A stretch of 64,000 bases of DNA from Bacteroidota bacterium (GTDB taxonomy: Bacteria; Bacteroidota; Bacteroidia; 2-12-FULL-35-15), in contig JAFLBF010000001.1 in assembly GCA_017303895.1 (NCBI GenBank), positions 620,001-684,000 on the forward strand. The letters are read 5' to 3'. The translations under genes and the position numbers were made by a program. How positions within the stretch are numbered: position 1 is the stretch's first letter; each line of letters opens with the position of its first letter. A model generated the notes under the pieces. The model saw nothing but the letters and a program-made list of their open reading frames with translations. It did not search any database and was not told where the DNA came from. Shown here piece after piece: positions 21,037-41,658 of the stretch.

Positions 21037-21110
21037 CTCCCCCTCCTGGGCTCGAACCAGGGACCCCATGATTAACAGTCATGTGCTCTAACCAGCTGAG
21101 CTAAGGAGGA
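21037..21110 (-). tRNA. tRNA-Asn (anticodon GTT)
   Basis: On the minus strand a 74-base cloverleaf: 7-bp acceptor stem TCCTCCT with AGGGGGA, D arm GCTCAGCTGGTTAGAGC, anticodon stem CATGA/TCATG with loop CTGTTAA (anticodon GTT), T arm CCTGG-TTCGAGC-CCAGG and discriminator G. The 3' CCA is not encoded. A terminator follows within 10 bases. Confidence 0.96.
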
Positions 21111-22330: not shown

Positions 22331-24289
22331 ATGGCAACCAACGGACATCATAATGCACATAAGCTCTCGGCAGCAGGTTTATTAGTAACGCTTGGAATTA
22401 TTTATGGTGATATTGGAACATCACCATTATATGTATTAAAAGCAATTGTTGGAGATCATCCTATCAATGCCGACACTGTTAAAGGAGCCATCTCTTGTAT
22501 TTTTTGGACGCTGACACTTCAAACAACTCTTAAGTATGTCATTCTTACTCTTCGTGCTGATAATAAAGGTGAGGGAGGAATATTCTCTTTATATACACTT
22601 GTTAGAAGAGCAAAGATCAAATGGCTATTGTTCCCAGCTATTATTGGCGGTAGTACACTTTTAGCGGATGGAATTATTACTCCTCCAATTTCAGTGGCAT
22701 CGGCAATTGAAGGGTTAAAAGGATTGAATCCCAATATCAATACTGTTCCTATCATTATTGCGATCTTAACAGCCTTATTTGTTATTCAACAGTTTGGAAC
22801 AAAATTCATCGGTAAATTTTTTGGTCCCGTGATGCTTGTTTGGTTCCTCATGTTAGGAATTCTAGGGGTTACTCAGATGTTTACCAATATTAACATATTA
22901 GGCGCTCTTAATCCTTATTATGCATATAAACTGTTGTTTGGACACCCTGAAGGATTTCTTGTTTTAGGAGCAGTATTCTTGTGTACAACAGGTGCTGAAG
23001 CCTTGTATTCTGATCTAGGACATTGCGGTAAAGAGAACATTCGTATTAGCTGGATATTTGTAAAACTGATGCTTGTTTTAAATTATTTTGGTCAAGGAGC
23101 CTGGTTAATTTCACATGAAGGACAAACGTTAACACAGGTAGGGGAGCTTAATCCATTTTATGGAATAATGCCGCAATGGTTTGTGGGGACCGGTATTATT
23201 ATTGCAACTTTAGCAGCGATCGTTGCGAGTCAGGCCTTGATCAGTGGCTCGTTTACTTTGATCAATGAGGCAATGCGTTTAAATTTCTGGCCAAAAGTAA
23301 AGATCAAATATCCTACCGTATTAAAAGGGCAATTGTATATTCCTTCACTTAATTGGTTGTTGTGGGCAGGTTGTTTAGGTGTTGTGATCTATTTCCAGGA
23401 ATCATCTAACATGGAGGCCGCCTACGGTTTAGCCATTGTTTTAACAATGTTAATGACCACTACGTTATTAGCATATTACATGATCCTTAAACGCTACAAT
23501 TCTATTTTTATAATAGTTACAGTTGCCATGTATGCCGTAATTGAGGTGTCTTTTCTGATCGCTAATTTAAGTAAGTTTACTCATGGCGGATGGATCACCT
23601 TATTGATCGCTTCTGTACTTATTAGTGTTATGTTGATCTGGTATTATGCCCGTAAGATCCGTAACCGTTATGTGGAGTTTGTAAAGTTGACAGATTATTT
23701 ACCTGTGTTGGAGGATCTGAGTCGCGACTTAAGTGTTCCGAAATATGCAACACACCTAGTGTATTTAACGAGTGCAAATAACAGAGAAGAGATCGAATCG
23801 AAGATCATTTATTCCATCATGCAAAAACAACCGAAGCGTGCCGATATCTATTGGTTTGTGCATGTGGATGTAGTGGATGAGCCTTATCGTATGGAATATA
23901 AAGTATGTGAGTTCATTCATGATGATGTTATCCGTATCGATTTCAAATTAGGATTCCGTGTGGCGCCTCGTATTAATTTGATGTTCCGTAAAGTGGTAGA
24001 AGACTTGGTGAAGAACAAAGAAGTGGATATCACTAGCCGTTATAAATCATTAAATAAAAACAACATCATTGGCGATTTTCGCTTTATTGTGATCGAGAAA
24101 TTCTTGTCGTATGAGAACGAATTGCCGGTGATTGAAAAAGTTGTTTTGGATGTTCATGCCTTCTTAAAACACTTAAGTTTGTCAGAAGCAAAAGCGTTTG
24201 GCTTGGATACCAGTTCGGTTACAACAGAAACGGTTCCGTTGATACTTGCTCCTCCAAAAGAGTTGAATCTAAAACGAATTGTGGATTAG
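22331..24289 (+). CDS. kup: KUP/HAK/KT family potassium transporter
   Basis: 652 residues. Inner-membrane potassium uptake by proton symport. The family signature is at the start: LGIIYGDIGTSPLYVLKAIVG (about residues 23-43), then GEGGIFSLYTL and ITPPISVASAIEGL. About twelve hydrophobic segments reach residue 430, followed by a cytoplasmic C-terminal domain of about 200 residues, as in E. coli Kup (622). Start chosen at ATG 22331 because the upstream TTG lies in the promoter. Its stop overlaps by 4 bases the stop of the convergent gene on the other strand, with no terminator visible between. Confidence 0.95.
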   Translation: MATNGHHNAHKLSAAGLLVTLGIIYGDIGTSPLYVLKAIVGDHPINADTVKGAISCIFWTLTLQTTLKYVILTLRADNKGEGGIFSLYTLVRRAKIKWLLFPAIIGGSTLLADGIITPPISVASAIEGLKGLNPNINTVPIIIAILTALFVIQQFGTKFIGKFFGPVMLVWFLMLGILGVTQMFTNINILGALNPYYAYKLLFGHPEGFLVLGAVFLCTTGAEALYSDLGHCGKENIRISWIFVKLMLVLNYFGQGAWLISHEGQTLTQVGELNPFYGIMPQWFVGTGIIIATLAAIVASQALISGSFTLINEAMRLNFWPKVKIKYPTVLKGQLYIPSLNWLLWAGCLGVVIYFQESSNMEAAYGLAIVLTMLMTTTLLAYYMILKRYNSIFIIVTVAMYAVIEVSFLIANLSKFTHGGWITLLIASVLISVMLIWYYARKIRNRYVEFVKLTDYLPVLEDLSRDLSVPKYATHLVYLTSANNREEIESKIIYSIMQKQPKRADIYWFVHVDVVDEPYRMEYKVCEFIHDDVIRIDFKLGFRVAPRINLMFRKVVEDLVKNKEVDITSRYKSLNKNNIIGDFRFIVIEKFLSYENELPVIEKVVLDVHAFLKHLSLSEAKAFGLDTSSVTTETVPLILAPPKELNLKRIVD

Positions 24290-25851
24290 TGCATGTGTGC
24301 GTTTGAGGCTTCAAACGTATGCTGCTTCATAAATTTCTCCTTTTTAATATCCATAAAGCTACGGTTATCGATCTTGCTTTCTAACCAGGAGATAAGGTCG
24401 AATAAGCTTAGTGCATTTTTCTCGATCTTGTTGCTGGTTGCACTTTCAATGTTTGCTTTTAACTGCTTGAAAGCATTGAGTTGTTCCGGAGAATTCTTTT
24501 TACGGATATCAGAGTTCTTTAGGAAGTTCAATATCTGTTTTTCAAATTCATGCAATTTGTTTCTTCTTAAAAGTAAGCGGTAAGTAGTGCGGATACGGTA
24601 ATCCATTAATTCAATATTCCCCAATTCGTAATAAATGATCAAGCTGAGAATGTGGGAGAAACAATAAATATCACTTCTGAAATTACTTTCCGGCTGATTC
24701 AATAATTTATTGATATGCTGATTAGCTAATCGATATTCCTCCAATGCAATGTAGATATACGCTAAAGCATAGTTGTGTAAAAGCTTTTCTTTTTCGATCA
24801 CTTTTGTTGGTGCAATTTGCTCATACAACAATTCTAACTTTTTACCGATCTTCAATGCCTTTTCAAATTCCCCCATCGGAATGTAAACGAAGAGTTTTAA
24901 GTTCTCGGTAAGTACCTCGTAATACTTGTTGATGTGTCCGTATTCTTTAACGAATGCATCCATTTTTTCGATGGTTGAAAAGAGCTCATCATAACGCATT
25001 AAACTGAGCTCATTCACGGCTTTGTTTCTAAGAATACCGATGTATGCAAAGGGCTTCACAGAGGCCATGTGTTTATTCTGTTCAAACAGATCTACATTTT
25101 CCTGTAACAAACTTTCTGCATTTGCCTGCTCATTGAGCGTGAACAAGAAATTCGATTGCATTAAATTCCTGTAGAATTGTGCATTGAATGTAGAAAGTAA
25201 GCTATTGCTGTTTGATTTCGATTCTTCAAATATCTTTTGATATTCCAATACATCTTCATCGTTACGGGTAAGTCCCGTATACAAGGCTTTGGCTCTTAAT
25301 TTTTGGTATAAGTGTTTATAGCCTATGATCTTTTTCTTTTTATCGATGCTGTCATATAGCTCATCAAAATAGCTATTGACAAGTTCCAGATAATTTTCAG
25401 GTTTGGCTTCTTCCACTAGCAATACAATATCCCAATCAATGATCTCCTCCATGAATTCATACAATTCATATTGTTTGGCAATAGCTTTGGCTTTTACAAG
25501 CATTTTTTTGGCAACACCCGGCAAGTTTTTATTATAAAGGATCTCAACATGATTCAGCATGCTGCGCAGATCACTCTTTACGTTGGAATGATAGGATTCT
25601 AAACTTTTTAAAATGAATTTGAACAGATAGTTTTTTGTTACTGAAAAATTCAAAAGAACAGGATCGCCTTTAAATTTACGAACCAGATCCTTTTCACTGT
25701 ATTCTTTCTGTCTGTCAATGGCATCAAAGATCTTGATGTATTTATTTTGCCCACCAACAGCATGTACACCGGCCTGCTTTTTTATATAGCCTTTTTCCGG
25801 TGCCGACAACGACTTGATAAGCAAAAACAAACTATTGTTTGTAGATGACAT
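24286..25851 (-). CDS. Helical-repeat protein of unknown function
   Basis: 521 residues with no signal peptide or membrane helix, so probably cytosolic. Sequence is almost wholly alpha-helical with TPR-like spacing of Tyr, Leu and Ala, and an N-terminal region (LIKSLSAPEKGYIKKQAG, then FDAIDRQKEYSEKDLVRKF) that I remember from a widespread uncharacterised Bacteroidota family. The middle is rich in Lys, Glu and Asn. It is monocistronic, preceded on the minus strand by TATATTTG at 25878-25885, and convergent with kup. No catalytic motif is visible. Confidence 0.75.
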   Translation of the reverse strand: MSSTNNSLFLLIKSLSAPEKGYIKKQAGVHAVGGQNKYIKIFDAIDRQKEYSEKDLVRKFKGDPVLLNFSVTKNYLFKFILKSLESYHSNVKSDLRSMLNHVEILYNKNLPGVAKKMLVKAKAIAKQYELYEFMEEIIDWDIVLLVEEAKPENYLELVNSYFDELYDSIDKKKKIIGYKHLYQKLRAKALYTGLTRNDEDVLEYQKIFEESKSNSNSLLSTFNAQFYRNLMQSNFLFTLNEQANAESLLQENVDLFEQNKHMASVKPFAYIGILRNKAVNELSLMRYDELFSTIEKMDAFVKEYGHINKYYEVLTENLKLFVYIPMGEFEKALKIGKKLELLYEQIAPTKVIEKEKLLHNYALAYIYIALEEYRLANQHINKLLNQPESNFRSDIYCFSHILSLIIYYELGNIELMDYRIRTTYRLLLRRNKLHEFEKQILNFLKNSDIRKKNSPEQLNAFKQLKANIESATSNKIEKNALSLFDLISWLESKIDNRSFMDIKKEKFMKQHTFEASNAHMH

Positions 25852-25877: not shown

Positions 25878-25885
25878 CAAATATA
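25878..25885 (-). promoter_or_regulatory. -7 element TATATTTG for the helical-repeat gene
   Basis: Minus-strand TATATTTG; a start near 25872 gives a leader of about 20 bases before the ATG at 25851. Confidence 0.5.
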
Positions 25886-26030: not shown

Positions 26031-26087
26031 GAGGGGCTGATTCAAGTATAAATATCATATATATTGTTCCCGAAAACTTATTTTTTA

Positions 26088-26194
26088 TAAAAACTTGGTT
26101 TTGTTTTCGCTTTTTACCGTTACATATTTGCTATGCAGTTTATCGCCACAAATGGATATCATGTCCAAGATAAATTGTAAAAACTTGGTGTTGT
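26088..26194. repeat. 17-base direct repeat flanking the ncRNA promoter
   Basis: TAAAAACTTGGTTTTGT (26088-26104) and TAAAAACTTGGTGTTGT (26178-26194) differ at one base and start 90 bases apart. The first copy includes the -33 TTTTG; the second lies inside the candidate RNA, next to its second hairpin. Confidence 0.55.
26099..26130 (+). promoter_or_regulatory. Promoter of the candidate small RNA
   Basis: TTTTG (26099-26103), a 19-base spacer and CATATTTG (26123-26130; one mismatch to TAnnTTTG). Predicted start 26133-26137, exactly where the first stem of the RNA begins. Confidence 0.5.
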
Positions 26195-26276
26195 GAAGGA
26201 GTAGCACAACAGTGTTTCATGTTTAGTTTTATCCAAAAGATCCCGGAGTTTTTATCAAGTTCTCCGGGATTTTTAT
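26136..26276 (+). ncRNA. Candidate structured small RNA, about 140 nt
   Basis: The 522-base gap 25852-26373 has no convincing open frame, yet contains a full transcription unit. A 9-bp stem (26136-26144 with 26169-26177, one G-T) opens right at the predicted start and encloses a TGGA/TCCA helix (26153-26156 with 26164-26167). A 7-bp stem TGTTGTG/CACAACA (26189-26195 with 26205-26211) exposes loop AAGGAGTAG. A terminator hairpin (26240-26248 with 26262-26270) ends in TTTTT. I do not match it to tmRNA, RNase P RNA, SRP RNA or 6S RNA. It could be a trans-acting RNA or a leader/attenuator of the PurF-like gene 98 bases downstream. Confidence 0.45.
26236..26276 (+). terminator. Stand-alone terminator with no upstream CDS
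   Basis: ATCCCGGAG (26240-26248) pairs with CTCCGGGAT (26262-26270) around a 13-base loop, followed by TTTTT (T at 26270 to 26274). The nearest rightward coding gene upstream is kup, 1.9 kb away with an opposing gene between. Confidence 0.85.
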
Positions 26277-26373
26277 TTGGTCTTGCCGAAAGCCCTTTCC
26301 GTCTAAATAAACTTTACAGCCAATCAATAAAAATCGTAAATTCGTTGCTCAAAAAATTTTAGCCCTTTTTCCT

Positions 26374-28275
26374 ATGAGCGATGCAATAAAGCACGAATGT
26401 GGTATAGCAATGGTCCGATTGTTAAAACCGCTTGACTTTTACATCAAAAAATACGGTACTCCGTTGTATGGCGTAAACAAGATGTACTTGCTTATGGAAA
26501 AACAACACAACCGCGGGCAGGATGGTGCAGGAGTGGCTAATATTAAATTTGATGTAGCTCCCGGAACACGTTACATAAGCAGAAACAGAGCGGTAGGAAG
26601 TGGAGCCATCAAGGAGATCTTCGGAAAGATCAATTCTAAATTTGAAGAAGTACATAAAAAGAATGCAGATCGATTAAACGATGCTGTCTGGTTGAAGAAA
26701 AATGTTGCCTATACGGGCGAATTGTTTTTAGGACATTTGCGTTACGGAACCTATGGTGGGAACACCATTGAAAATTGTCACCCTTTCCTTCGTCAGAACA
26801 ACTGGATGACCCGAAATTTGGTAGTTGCAGGAAATTTTAATCTTACCAATGTGGATGAGCTGTTCAATCAGCTGGTAGAATTGGGGCAACACCCCAAAGA
26901 AAAAGCGGATACGGTGACGGTGATGGAAAAGATCGGTCATTTTTTAGATGAAGAGAATGAGCGTTTATTCCAACAATTCAAAAAAGAAGGCTTGGATAAT
27001 GCGGAAATTTCCTTACAGATCGCAAAACATTTGGATGTTGCACGCATCTTAAGAGCAGCCAGCAAAAAATGGGATGGAGGATATGCTATGGCAGGTTTGT
27101 TTGGTCATGGTGATGCTTTTGTATTGCGTGATCCAAGCGGTATTCGTCCAACCTATTATTATTCAGACGATGAAGTAGTAGTAGTTACTTCGGAACGTCC
27201 AGTGATTCAAACAGCATTTAATGTGCCATTGGAGAAAGTAAAAGAACTTACTCCCGGACATGCTTTGATCATTAAAAAAGATGGGACTTACGGAGAACAC
27301 GAGATCTTAGCACCACTCAAGAAAACACCTTGTTCGTTTGAACGTATTTATTTTTCACGTGGTAGCGATGCTGATATTTACCGTGAACGTCAAAAATTAG
27401 GAAGTCAGTTAACGCCTGCGGTATTGCGTTCAGTGGATTATGATCTGAAGAATACCGTATTCTCTTATATTCCGAATACCGCTGAAGTTGCTTTTGGAGG
27501 CTTGATCGAGGGTTTGCATCATTATAACAATACAGTGAAGCGTCACAAAATATTGCAGATGGGGAGCAAGGTAAGTGATCCGGAATTGAGTGAGATACTT
27601 TCGGTTCATCCCCGTATCGAAAAAATTGCGATCAAGGATGCTAAGTTAAGAACATTCATTACCCAGGATGCTCAACGCGATGACATGGTTGCGCATGTGT
27701 ATGATACTACATACGGAGTTGTAAAAGCAGGAGAAGATAATTTAGTGGTATTAGATGATTCGATCGTTAGAGGGACAACATTAAAACAAAGTATATTAAA
27801 GATCTTAGACCGTTTAGGTCCTAAAAAGATCGTGATCGTTTCTTCTGCTCCACAGATCCGTTATCCGGATTGTTATGGAATTGATATGGCTAAGTTGGGC
27901 GATTTCATTGCATTCCAAGCAGCTGTTCAGTTGTTGAAAGATAATTTCAAAGAGAATCTGTTGGATGAGCTGTATGAAAAAGCAAAGGCACAAGAAAGTC
28001 TTCCCAAAGAAGAGATCGTAAATGTGGTGAAGGAGATCTATGAACCCTTTACAGCAGATCAGATTTCAGCTAAGATCTCTGAATTGTTACGTCCAGAAGG
28101 CATTAACGCAGAGGTGGAGATCATTTATCAGACCATAGAAGGCTTACATAATGCTTGTCCGAATAACCAGGGCGACTGGTATTTTACGGGAAATTACCCT
28201 ACTCCGGGCGGAAATAAAGTGGTGAATAAATCATTCATCAACTTTATGGAAGGAAAAAATGTAAGAGCATATTGA
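26374..28275 (+). CDS. PurF-like amidophosphoribosyltransferase, long form
   Basis: 633 residues: an N-terminal class II glutamine amidotransferase domain and a C-terminal phosphoribosyltransferase domain. The nucleophile is Cys9 in HECGIAMV, so an 8-residue propeptide would be removed. QHNRGQDGAGVA and GHLRYGTYGG are the expected amidotransferase motifs; the PRPP-binding loop is VVLDDSIVRGTTLKQS at about residues 455-470. True PurF proteins are about 450-510 residues; here extra sequence lies in both domains and at the end (about 535-633, with NACPNNQGDWYFTGNYPTPGG). Bacteroidota often encode this longer version in addition to a standard PurF. First step of purine synthesis is the likely reaction, but a specialised role is possible. 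Confidence 0.85.
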   Translation: MSDAIKHECGIAMVRLLKPLDFYIKKYGTPLYGVNKMYLLMEKQHNRGQDGAGVANIKFDVAPGTRYISRNRAVGSGAIKEIFGKINSKFEEVHKKNADRLNDAVWLKKNVAYTGELFLGHLRYGTYGGNTIENCHPFLRQNNWMTRNLVVAGNFNLTNVDELFNQLVELGQHPKEKADTVTVMEKIGHFLDEENERLFQQFKKEGLDNAEISLQIAKHLDVARILRAASKKWDGGYAMAGLFGHGDAFVLRDPSGIRPTYYYSDDEVVVVTSERPVIQTAFNVPLEKVKELTPGHALIIKKDGTYGEHEILAPLKKTPCSFERIYFSRGSDADIYRERQKLGSQLTPAVLRSVDYDLKNTVFSYIPNTAEVAFGGLIEGLHHYNNTVKRHKILQMGSKVSDPELSEILSVHPRIEKIAIKDAKLRTFITQDAQRDDMVAHVYDTTYGVVKAGEDNLVVLDDSIVRGTTLKQSILKILDRLGPKKIVIVSSAPQIRYPDCYGIDMAKLGDFIAFQAAVQLLKDNFKENLLDELYEKAKAQESLPKEEIVNVVKEIYEPFTADQISAKISELLRPEGINAEVEIIYQTIEGLHNACPNNQGDWYFTGNYPTPGGNKVVNKSFINFMEGKNVRAY

Positions 28276-41584: not shown

Positions 41585-41658
41585 TGGGCCCACTTGGGAT
41601 CGAACCAAGCACCCACAGATTATGAGTCTGTTGCTCTAACCGACTGAGCTATAGGCCC
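41585..41658 (-). tRNA. tRNA with CAT anticodon (elongator Met, or Ile2)
   Basis: Minus-strand 74-base cloverleaf: acceptor GGGCCTA with TGGGCCC, D arm GCTCAGTCGGTTAGAGC, anticodon loop CTCATAA (anticodon CAT) on stem CAGA/TCTG, T arm CTTGG-TTCGATC-CCAAG, discriminator A. The anticodon stem lacks the three G-C pairs of initiator tRNA, so it is elongator Met, or a lysidine-modified Ile reader; sequence alone leaves this open. After the discriminator the genome has CCCA rather than an exact CCA. Confidence 0.9.

Follow-up and report, generated by a model that had tools for sequence, protein, structure and literature searches.

Few trans-acting small RNAs (sRNAs) with a known mechanism have been described in the Bacteroidota, a phylum without Shine-Dalgarno (SD) leaders. 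Described RNAs that bear comparison with the locus reported here include the 6S RNA of Bacteroidota (RF01685), which is likewise small, structured, conserved and transcribed from a promoter of its own, and the riboswitch or attenuator leaders of purine genes. The 6S RNA folds as one long hairpin with a large central open loop. In Bacteroides thetaiotaomicron, the trans-encoded sRNA GibS has an experimentally supported, conserved single-stranded seed that covers start codons (PMC7366714). Promoters in the phylum follow the consensus TAnnTTTG/TTTG (PMC7366714). In addition, the ribosomes of Bacteroidia sequester the anti-SD, and ribosomes that lack bS21 gain SD recognition (PMC9976891).

The window, which is the whole stretch of 64,000 nucleotides of Bacteroidota DNA that was analysed, contains a candidate RNA at 26134-26276 (+), for which sequence inspection and folding identified a promoter of the Bacteroidota type, followed by three hairpins and an intrinsic terminator. 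Comparison of genomes indicates that this is very probably an independent sRNA gene. As a whole, the locus is probably best read as encoding an autonomous sRNA of ~140 nt that has its own promoter and terminator and base-pairs in trans. Like GibS, the candidate is an intergenic Bacteroidota sRNA with a conserved single-stranded putative seed able to cover start codons and A-rich contexts (PMC7366714). The seed lies in the 5′ part of GibS but in the middle of the candidate RNA, which also differs in having a predicted pseudoknot that joins its second hairpin to the terminator. Where 6S RNA has a long helix closing off a large central loop, the candidate has three separate hairpins and this pseudoknot, and RF01685 (6S-Flavo) found nothing in six genomes of this genus.

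An earlier note, made from the sequence of the window, had set the candidate apart from tmRNA, RNase P, SRP and 6S RNA. The Rfam search agrees with this, as no family except tRNA reached the gathering score within the window, and no family reassigns the candidate RNA. The best sub-threshold match, to a microRNA family, scored 25 bits where 195 bits are required, and five homologous loci gave no Rfam family at E 0.1. The RNA represents a family that is new and absent from the Rfam library, but its kind is known. The sole gathering-score matches in the window are two tRNA genes at 21037-21110 (-) and 41585-41658 (-).

The locus and its promoter motifs

The candidate RNA lies in a gap of 522 bases between a 521-aa ORF on the minus strand, starting at 25851, and a PurF-like ORF on the plus strand, starting at 26374. 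The flanking genes and the promoter elements of the RNA are as follows:

24286..25851, minus strand: divergent neighbour of the BT2802-like family, 521 aa, with an ortholog found only in RNA-carrying genomes
26100..26103, plus strand: -33 promoter element TTTG, from sequence, at the same place in 11 aligned relatives, with an offset of 1 nt in the window
26123..26130, plus strand: -7 promoter element CATATTTG (consensus TAnnTTTG), from sequence, with TTTG invariant in 11 aligned sequences
26374..28275, plus strand: PurF-like amidophosphoribosyltransferase homologue, a neighbour outside the RNA (TIGR01134 at 133 bits against a 350-bit cut-off; GATase_7)

The -33/-7 promoter pair recognized previously is present as TTTG and CATATTTG with a spacer of 19 nt, and the predicted transcript start lies at ~26134-26137. 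The gap is flanked by no long frames other than the 521-aa ORF (-) and the PurF-like ORF (+), so the terminator is left unexplained by any plus-strand gene, and the claim that it has no coding gene upstream on its strand holds. Judged by its motifs, the element is free-standing, with its own promoter, its own terminator and no ORF on the same strand. Counting those of both flanking genes, three candidate promoters are found in the gap; the promoter-like TATATTTG at 25878-25885 (-) was assigned to the 521-aa gene. The region also contains an imperfect 20-nt direct repeat (90%) at 26085-26104 and 26175-26194 (TTATAAAAACTTGGTTTTGT / TTGTAAAAACTTGGTGTTGT), of which the first copy overlaps the -33 element and the second contains a strand of the pseudoknot.

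Distribution and conservation of the element

A BLASTN search in 40 relatives detected the element in ten others, all from the same genus. A pattern search and then a covariance model recovered it from 17 of the order's 36 genomes, with one copy per genome; as sampled, the order consists of a single genus. These carriers, at least 17 species in number, are related uncultured Bacteroidota. Matches in a class-wide sample of 395 genomes were confined to this genus, in a scan with stricter filters that may miss weak relatives. Among 84,980 species genomes, a 21-nt core pattern was found in 16 stretches, all titled Bacteroidota metagenome assemblies and at least one of them, going by its name, from a lake. 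In the positive loci, the RNA adjoins the same two genes, the PurF-like gene and the divergent neighbour. The core pattern of the second hairpin (P2) had no match in viral contigs. In one viral contig (L285, 506-526, minus strand), 21 nt are identical to the linker described below but the rest of the RNA is absent, probably a chance match.

The 55-nt core of the RNA, which runs from AAAA(A/G)CTTG to TTTTATC, differs between genomes by 1.6% on average, and the window genome differs from the others by 3.6-5.5%. Fourfold-degenerate sites in the adjacent purF show a mean difference of 61%, which is near saturation. A core that is almost frozen beside near-saturated synonymous sites must do something important in this lineage, and by this comparative evidence the RNA element is far from chance. 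Its once-per-genome occurrence would also provide a clean handle on antisense regulation without SD sequences.

Predicted fold and probable pseudoknot

The stretch 26136-26276 folds at -37.6 kcal/mol, compared with -24.0 +/- 3.1 kcal/mol for dinucleotide shuffles (z = -4.4), and none of 200 shuffles folded as low. The centroid fold consists of the three hairpins of the earlier note, and the following elements can be distinguished:

26134..26179, plus strand: 5′ hairpin P1, with arms 26134-26144 and 26169-26179 forming 11 bp (fold, arm-swap test)
26153-26158 with 26162-26167, plus strand: inner helix of P1 (fold)
26182..26189, plus strand: putative pseudoknot 5′ strand AACTTGGT, pairing with 26254-26261, 100% paired in 14 distinct sequences
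26190..26210, plus strand: hairpin P2, with a 6-bp stem GTTGTG/CACAAC and the loop AAGGAGTAG at 26196-26204
26211..26234, plus strand: near-invariant linker AGTGTTTCATGTTTAGTTTTATCC of 24 nt, a candidate seed (conservation; unpaired in the centroid fold)
26241..26274, plus strand: intrinsic terminator, stem 26241-26248 with 26262-26269 and T-run from 26270 (fold)
26254..26261, plus strand: putative pseudoknot 3′ strand ATCAAGTT inside the terminator loop, partner of 26182-26189

The 5′ stem enclosing an inner helix, described before as 9 bp, is present, and these 9 bp are part of a stem of 11 bp. P1 was misaligned by MAFFT, so its pairing was assessed by swapping arms between genomes. The P1 sequence is replaced between groups, yet its own arms pair better than swapped arms (0 of 20,000 permutations), a result that is inflated by relatedness, though the stems differ widely in sequence. 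P1 keeps its pairing while its sequence changes. The P2 stem is invariant in 17 genomes, and no covariation is therefore available for its pairing; the P2 loop is identical in 16 of the 17, the exception being AUGGAG in one genome. The second stem had been given as 7 bp. The stem-loop exists, but only six pairs are conserved, and T26189-A26211 is broken in three relatives by a change from A to T. T26189 is invariant while its apparent partner varies because it belongs to the putative pseudoknot strand. An alternative nested fold from RNAalifold, in which the linker is paired, was rejected, as it shows no covariation.

The terminator is kept in the 17 genomes, with one double-sided change (A-U to G-C). 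It was missed by a simple terminator scan because its loop of 13 nt is above the limit of 8 nt in that scan. The stem and T-run proposed for it earlier are present in the centroid fold, but the loop is probably not free, as it pairs upstream. This pairing had gone unnoticed: the terminator loop is complementary to the strand directly 5′ of P2 (AACUUGGU/AUCAAGUU, 8 bp). This complementarity, between the 8 nt at the 3′ end of the loop and the 8 nt before P2, is seen in 17 of 17 genomes, with the strands AGCUUGUU/GACAAGCU in most genomes and AACUUGGU/AUCAAGUU in the window genome and one relative (G001). Two pairs show double-sided changes (G-C to A-U and U-A to G-U) and one pair a single-sided change, with all cells paired; the double-sided changes sit on one branch (the window genome and G001) and are not repeated independently. 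For the pseudoknot, P2 and the terminator together, 99.4% of the cells are paired, against 97.1 +/- 0.4% in shuffles and 39-47% in a control with partners slid by 1-3 columns, and a covariation score as high was reached in none of 500 shuffles. On these alignments, the pseudoknot joining P2 to the terminator is likely to be real.

The pseudoknot strands directly adjoin both P2 and the terminator stem, so that coaxial stacking of all three helices is conceivable. Between the 5′ arm of the terminator and the pseudoknot strand, 4-5 nt would then have to cross 8 pairs, which is judged feasible via the deep groove. The locus thereby offers an example of a terminator whose loop appears to be tied back into the RNA fold, and such a tie is unusual. 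Conservation of the stems in relatives had been suggested as a check, and P1, the terminator and the pseudoknot were found to covary. The comparison of aligned sequences shows an independent and strongly conserved element that occurs once per genome and has these three covarying parts. For the autonomous RNA of ~140 nt put forward earlier, the conserved promoter, the terminator, the covariation and the extreme conservation argue for an independent gene, whereas its action in trans is what we infer.

The linker, candidate targets and alternative functions

The RNA would be transcribed from a housekeeping-type promoter, starting at ~26134-26137 and ending at its own terminator at ~26276. It would fold into the 5′ hairpin followed by P2, stacked on the 8-bp pseudoknot that ties the base of P2 to the terminator loop. 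Two parts would stay exposed, the P2 loop and the long single-stranded linker with its near-invariant sequence. The linker AGUGUUUCAUGUUUAGUUUUAUCC would base-pair with the start-codon regions of target mRNAs and block initiation, with repression as the presumed outcome, and the 5′ hairpin and the pseudoknotted terminator would protect the RNA ends. Base pairing in trans is the probable mode of action; that the linker is the start-codon seed is a tentative assignment, with slightly less than an even chance.

The linker complement GGATAAAACTAAACATGAAACACT resembles a Bacteroidota start-codon region, with A-rich sequence upstream, ATG and AAA. The target statistics cover a single contig of 786 kb, whose 605 predicted starts are A-rich at -14 to -10, at -6, at -3 and after the ATG; the upstream A-richness is partly circular, as starts preceded by A-rich sequence were preferred when the starts were chosen. 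This context agrees with the pattern in Flavobacterium and Bacteroides (PMC6847099; PMC7366714). Pairing of the linker with start regions had a mean of -8.3, against -7.6 +/- 0.3 for dinucleotide-shuffled linkers (2 of 60 as strong), and the difference between start and internal sites was matched by none of 60 shuffles. This small excess may reflect only the CAU content and U-richness of the linker. Pairings of -16 kcal/mol or better were found at 5 starts and at 10 internal ATG sites, and the strong-pairing tail was no better than that of shuffles or internal sites. Judged from its sequence, the linker is suited to start contexts, and specific targets are not revealed.

In 17 genomes, a 16-nt target pattern with at most 2 mismatches gave 80 start-like sites with no recurrent ortholog and was not clearly commoner than the reversed control. 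A 20-nt target pattern with up to 3 mismatches gave matches at the control level. The up521 mRNA was considered as a target and rejected, since only the window genome and G001 have the linker-complementary AAACTAAA in its 5′ UTR, and the 15 others do not. A strong single candidate in the window genome is a secreted-protein gene near 328681 of contig 1 (-22.4 kcal/mol).

The lack of a conserved mRNA target in these searches would also suit an RNA that binds or sequesters a protein, with P2 and the linker recognized by the protein and the complementarity to mRNAs incidental. The invariance of the P2 stem and the linker, which exceeds what pairing alone needs, points in the same direction. However, multi-target sRNAs can have invariant seeds too, which weakens this argument, and with no candidate protein identified, a protein-binding role is rather unlikely. 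The P2 loop contains AAGGAG, which matches an SD hexamer and is complementary to CUCCUU of the 16S tail. In the earlier note, a GGAG in a loop had been put forward as possibly acting on ribosome binding. Binding of this loop to the 16S rRNA tail, or to ribosomes lacking bS21, would be in line with its identity in 16 of 17 genomes and with the hidden anti-SD of Bacteroidia and the SD recognition gained without bS21 (PMC9976891). Such binding would involve 6-7 pairs only, whereas the published case needs an extended SD (PMC9976891); one genome has the AUGGAG loop, and the invariance of the linker would be left unexplained, making a role through the loop improbable. A combination of both elements, in which the SD-like loop and the strand complementary to a generic start context act on many mRNAs or on the ribosome as a lineage-specific global translation regulator, is distinctly improbable; if true, such an RNA would act in a phylum that hides its anti-SD.

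Relation to the neighbouring genes

The PurF-like protein is 81-89% identical across the genus, and its TIGR01134 score of 133, against the cut-off of 350, indicates a divergent or unusual PurF-type enzyme. Its gene is preceded by an element of its own:

26337..26344, plus strand: separate -7-like promoter element assigned to the purF-like gene, reading TAAATTCG here and TAAATTTG in most relatives, from comparison of 27 genomes

The earlier note had offered, as a second option, a regulatory leader for this gene. A cis-acting attenuator or riboswitch with a conditional terminator would resemble the purine-gene leaders in lying upstream of a purF homologue and ending in a terminator. The gene follows on the same strand in those RNA-positive loci that reach that far, and the strand before P2, as the partner of the terminator loop, could be taken for part of a switch. 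However, all 27 genomes in which the purF start could be read have the TAAATTTG-like element shortly before the gene, whether they carry the RNA or not; where they do, the element comes after the terminator. A shared transcript is thus unlikely, and as purF has its own conserved promoter motif even in genomes that lack the RNA, the leader reading is not supported. Between the RNA core and purF there are ~200 to ~390 nt, depending on the genome, a variation of ~190 nt, and genomes without the RNA have other sequence upstream of purF. No anti-terminator with covariation was found, and the only long-range helix that covaries can form alongside the terminator stem rather than breaking it. In addition, no Rfam riboswitch was found at threshold, and no conserved pairing between the RNA and the purF start was found: 51 of 300 shuffles did as well, and RNA-positive genomes showed no advantage. 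A leader function is therefore very improbable.

That a short protein gene on the opposite strand (MKHCCATPSQQQAF...) lies behind the conservation is barely credible and was rejected: read on the complementary strand, the core opens with AACATGAA, and the 14-aa start is the same or nearly so in 16 of 17 genomes (exact in 11), but almost no synonymous change is seen although synonymous sites next door are near saturation, a one-base deletion in L039 shifts the frame, the antisense frames end at unrelated places, and the promoter and terminator are on the other strand.

As for the autonomous sRNA, its presence is clustered on the purF tree, with 2 changes compared with 8.8 when shuffled, as would be expected from either two gains or a gain followed by a loss. 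An ortholog of the divergent neighbour was found in nine of nine RNA-positive genomes tested, at 63-74% identity when the window genome is set aside. None was found in 17 RNA-negative genomes: five of these gave only paralogs of ~30% identity, and in the other twelve nothing reached the threshold. The RNA and the divergent neighbour may have been gained together, which would be co-inheritance and not proof of a functional link. The divergent neighbour distantly matches NCBIfam BT2802 (ribose utilization protein). BT2802-like members are below threshold in most RNA-negative genomes and number 1 to 9 per RNA-positive genome.
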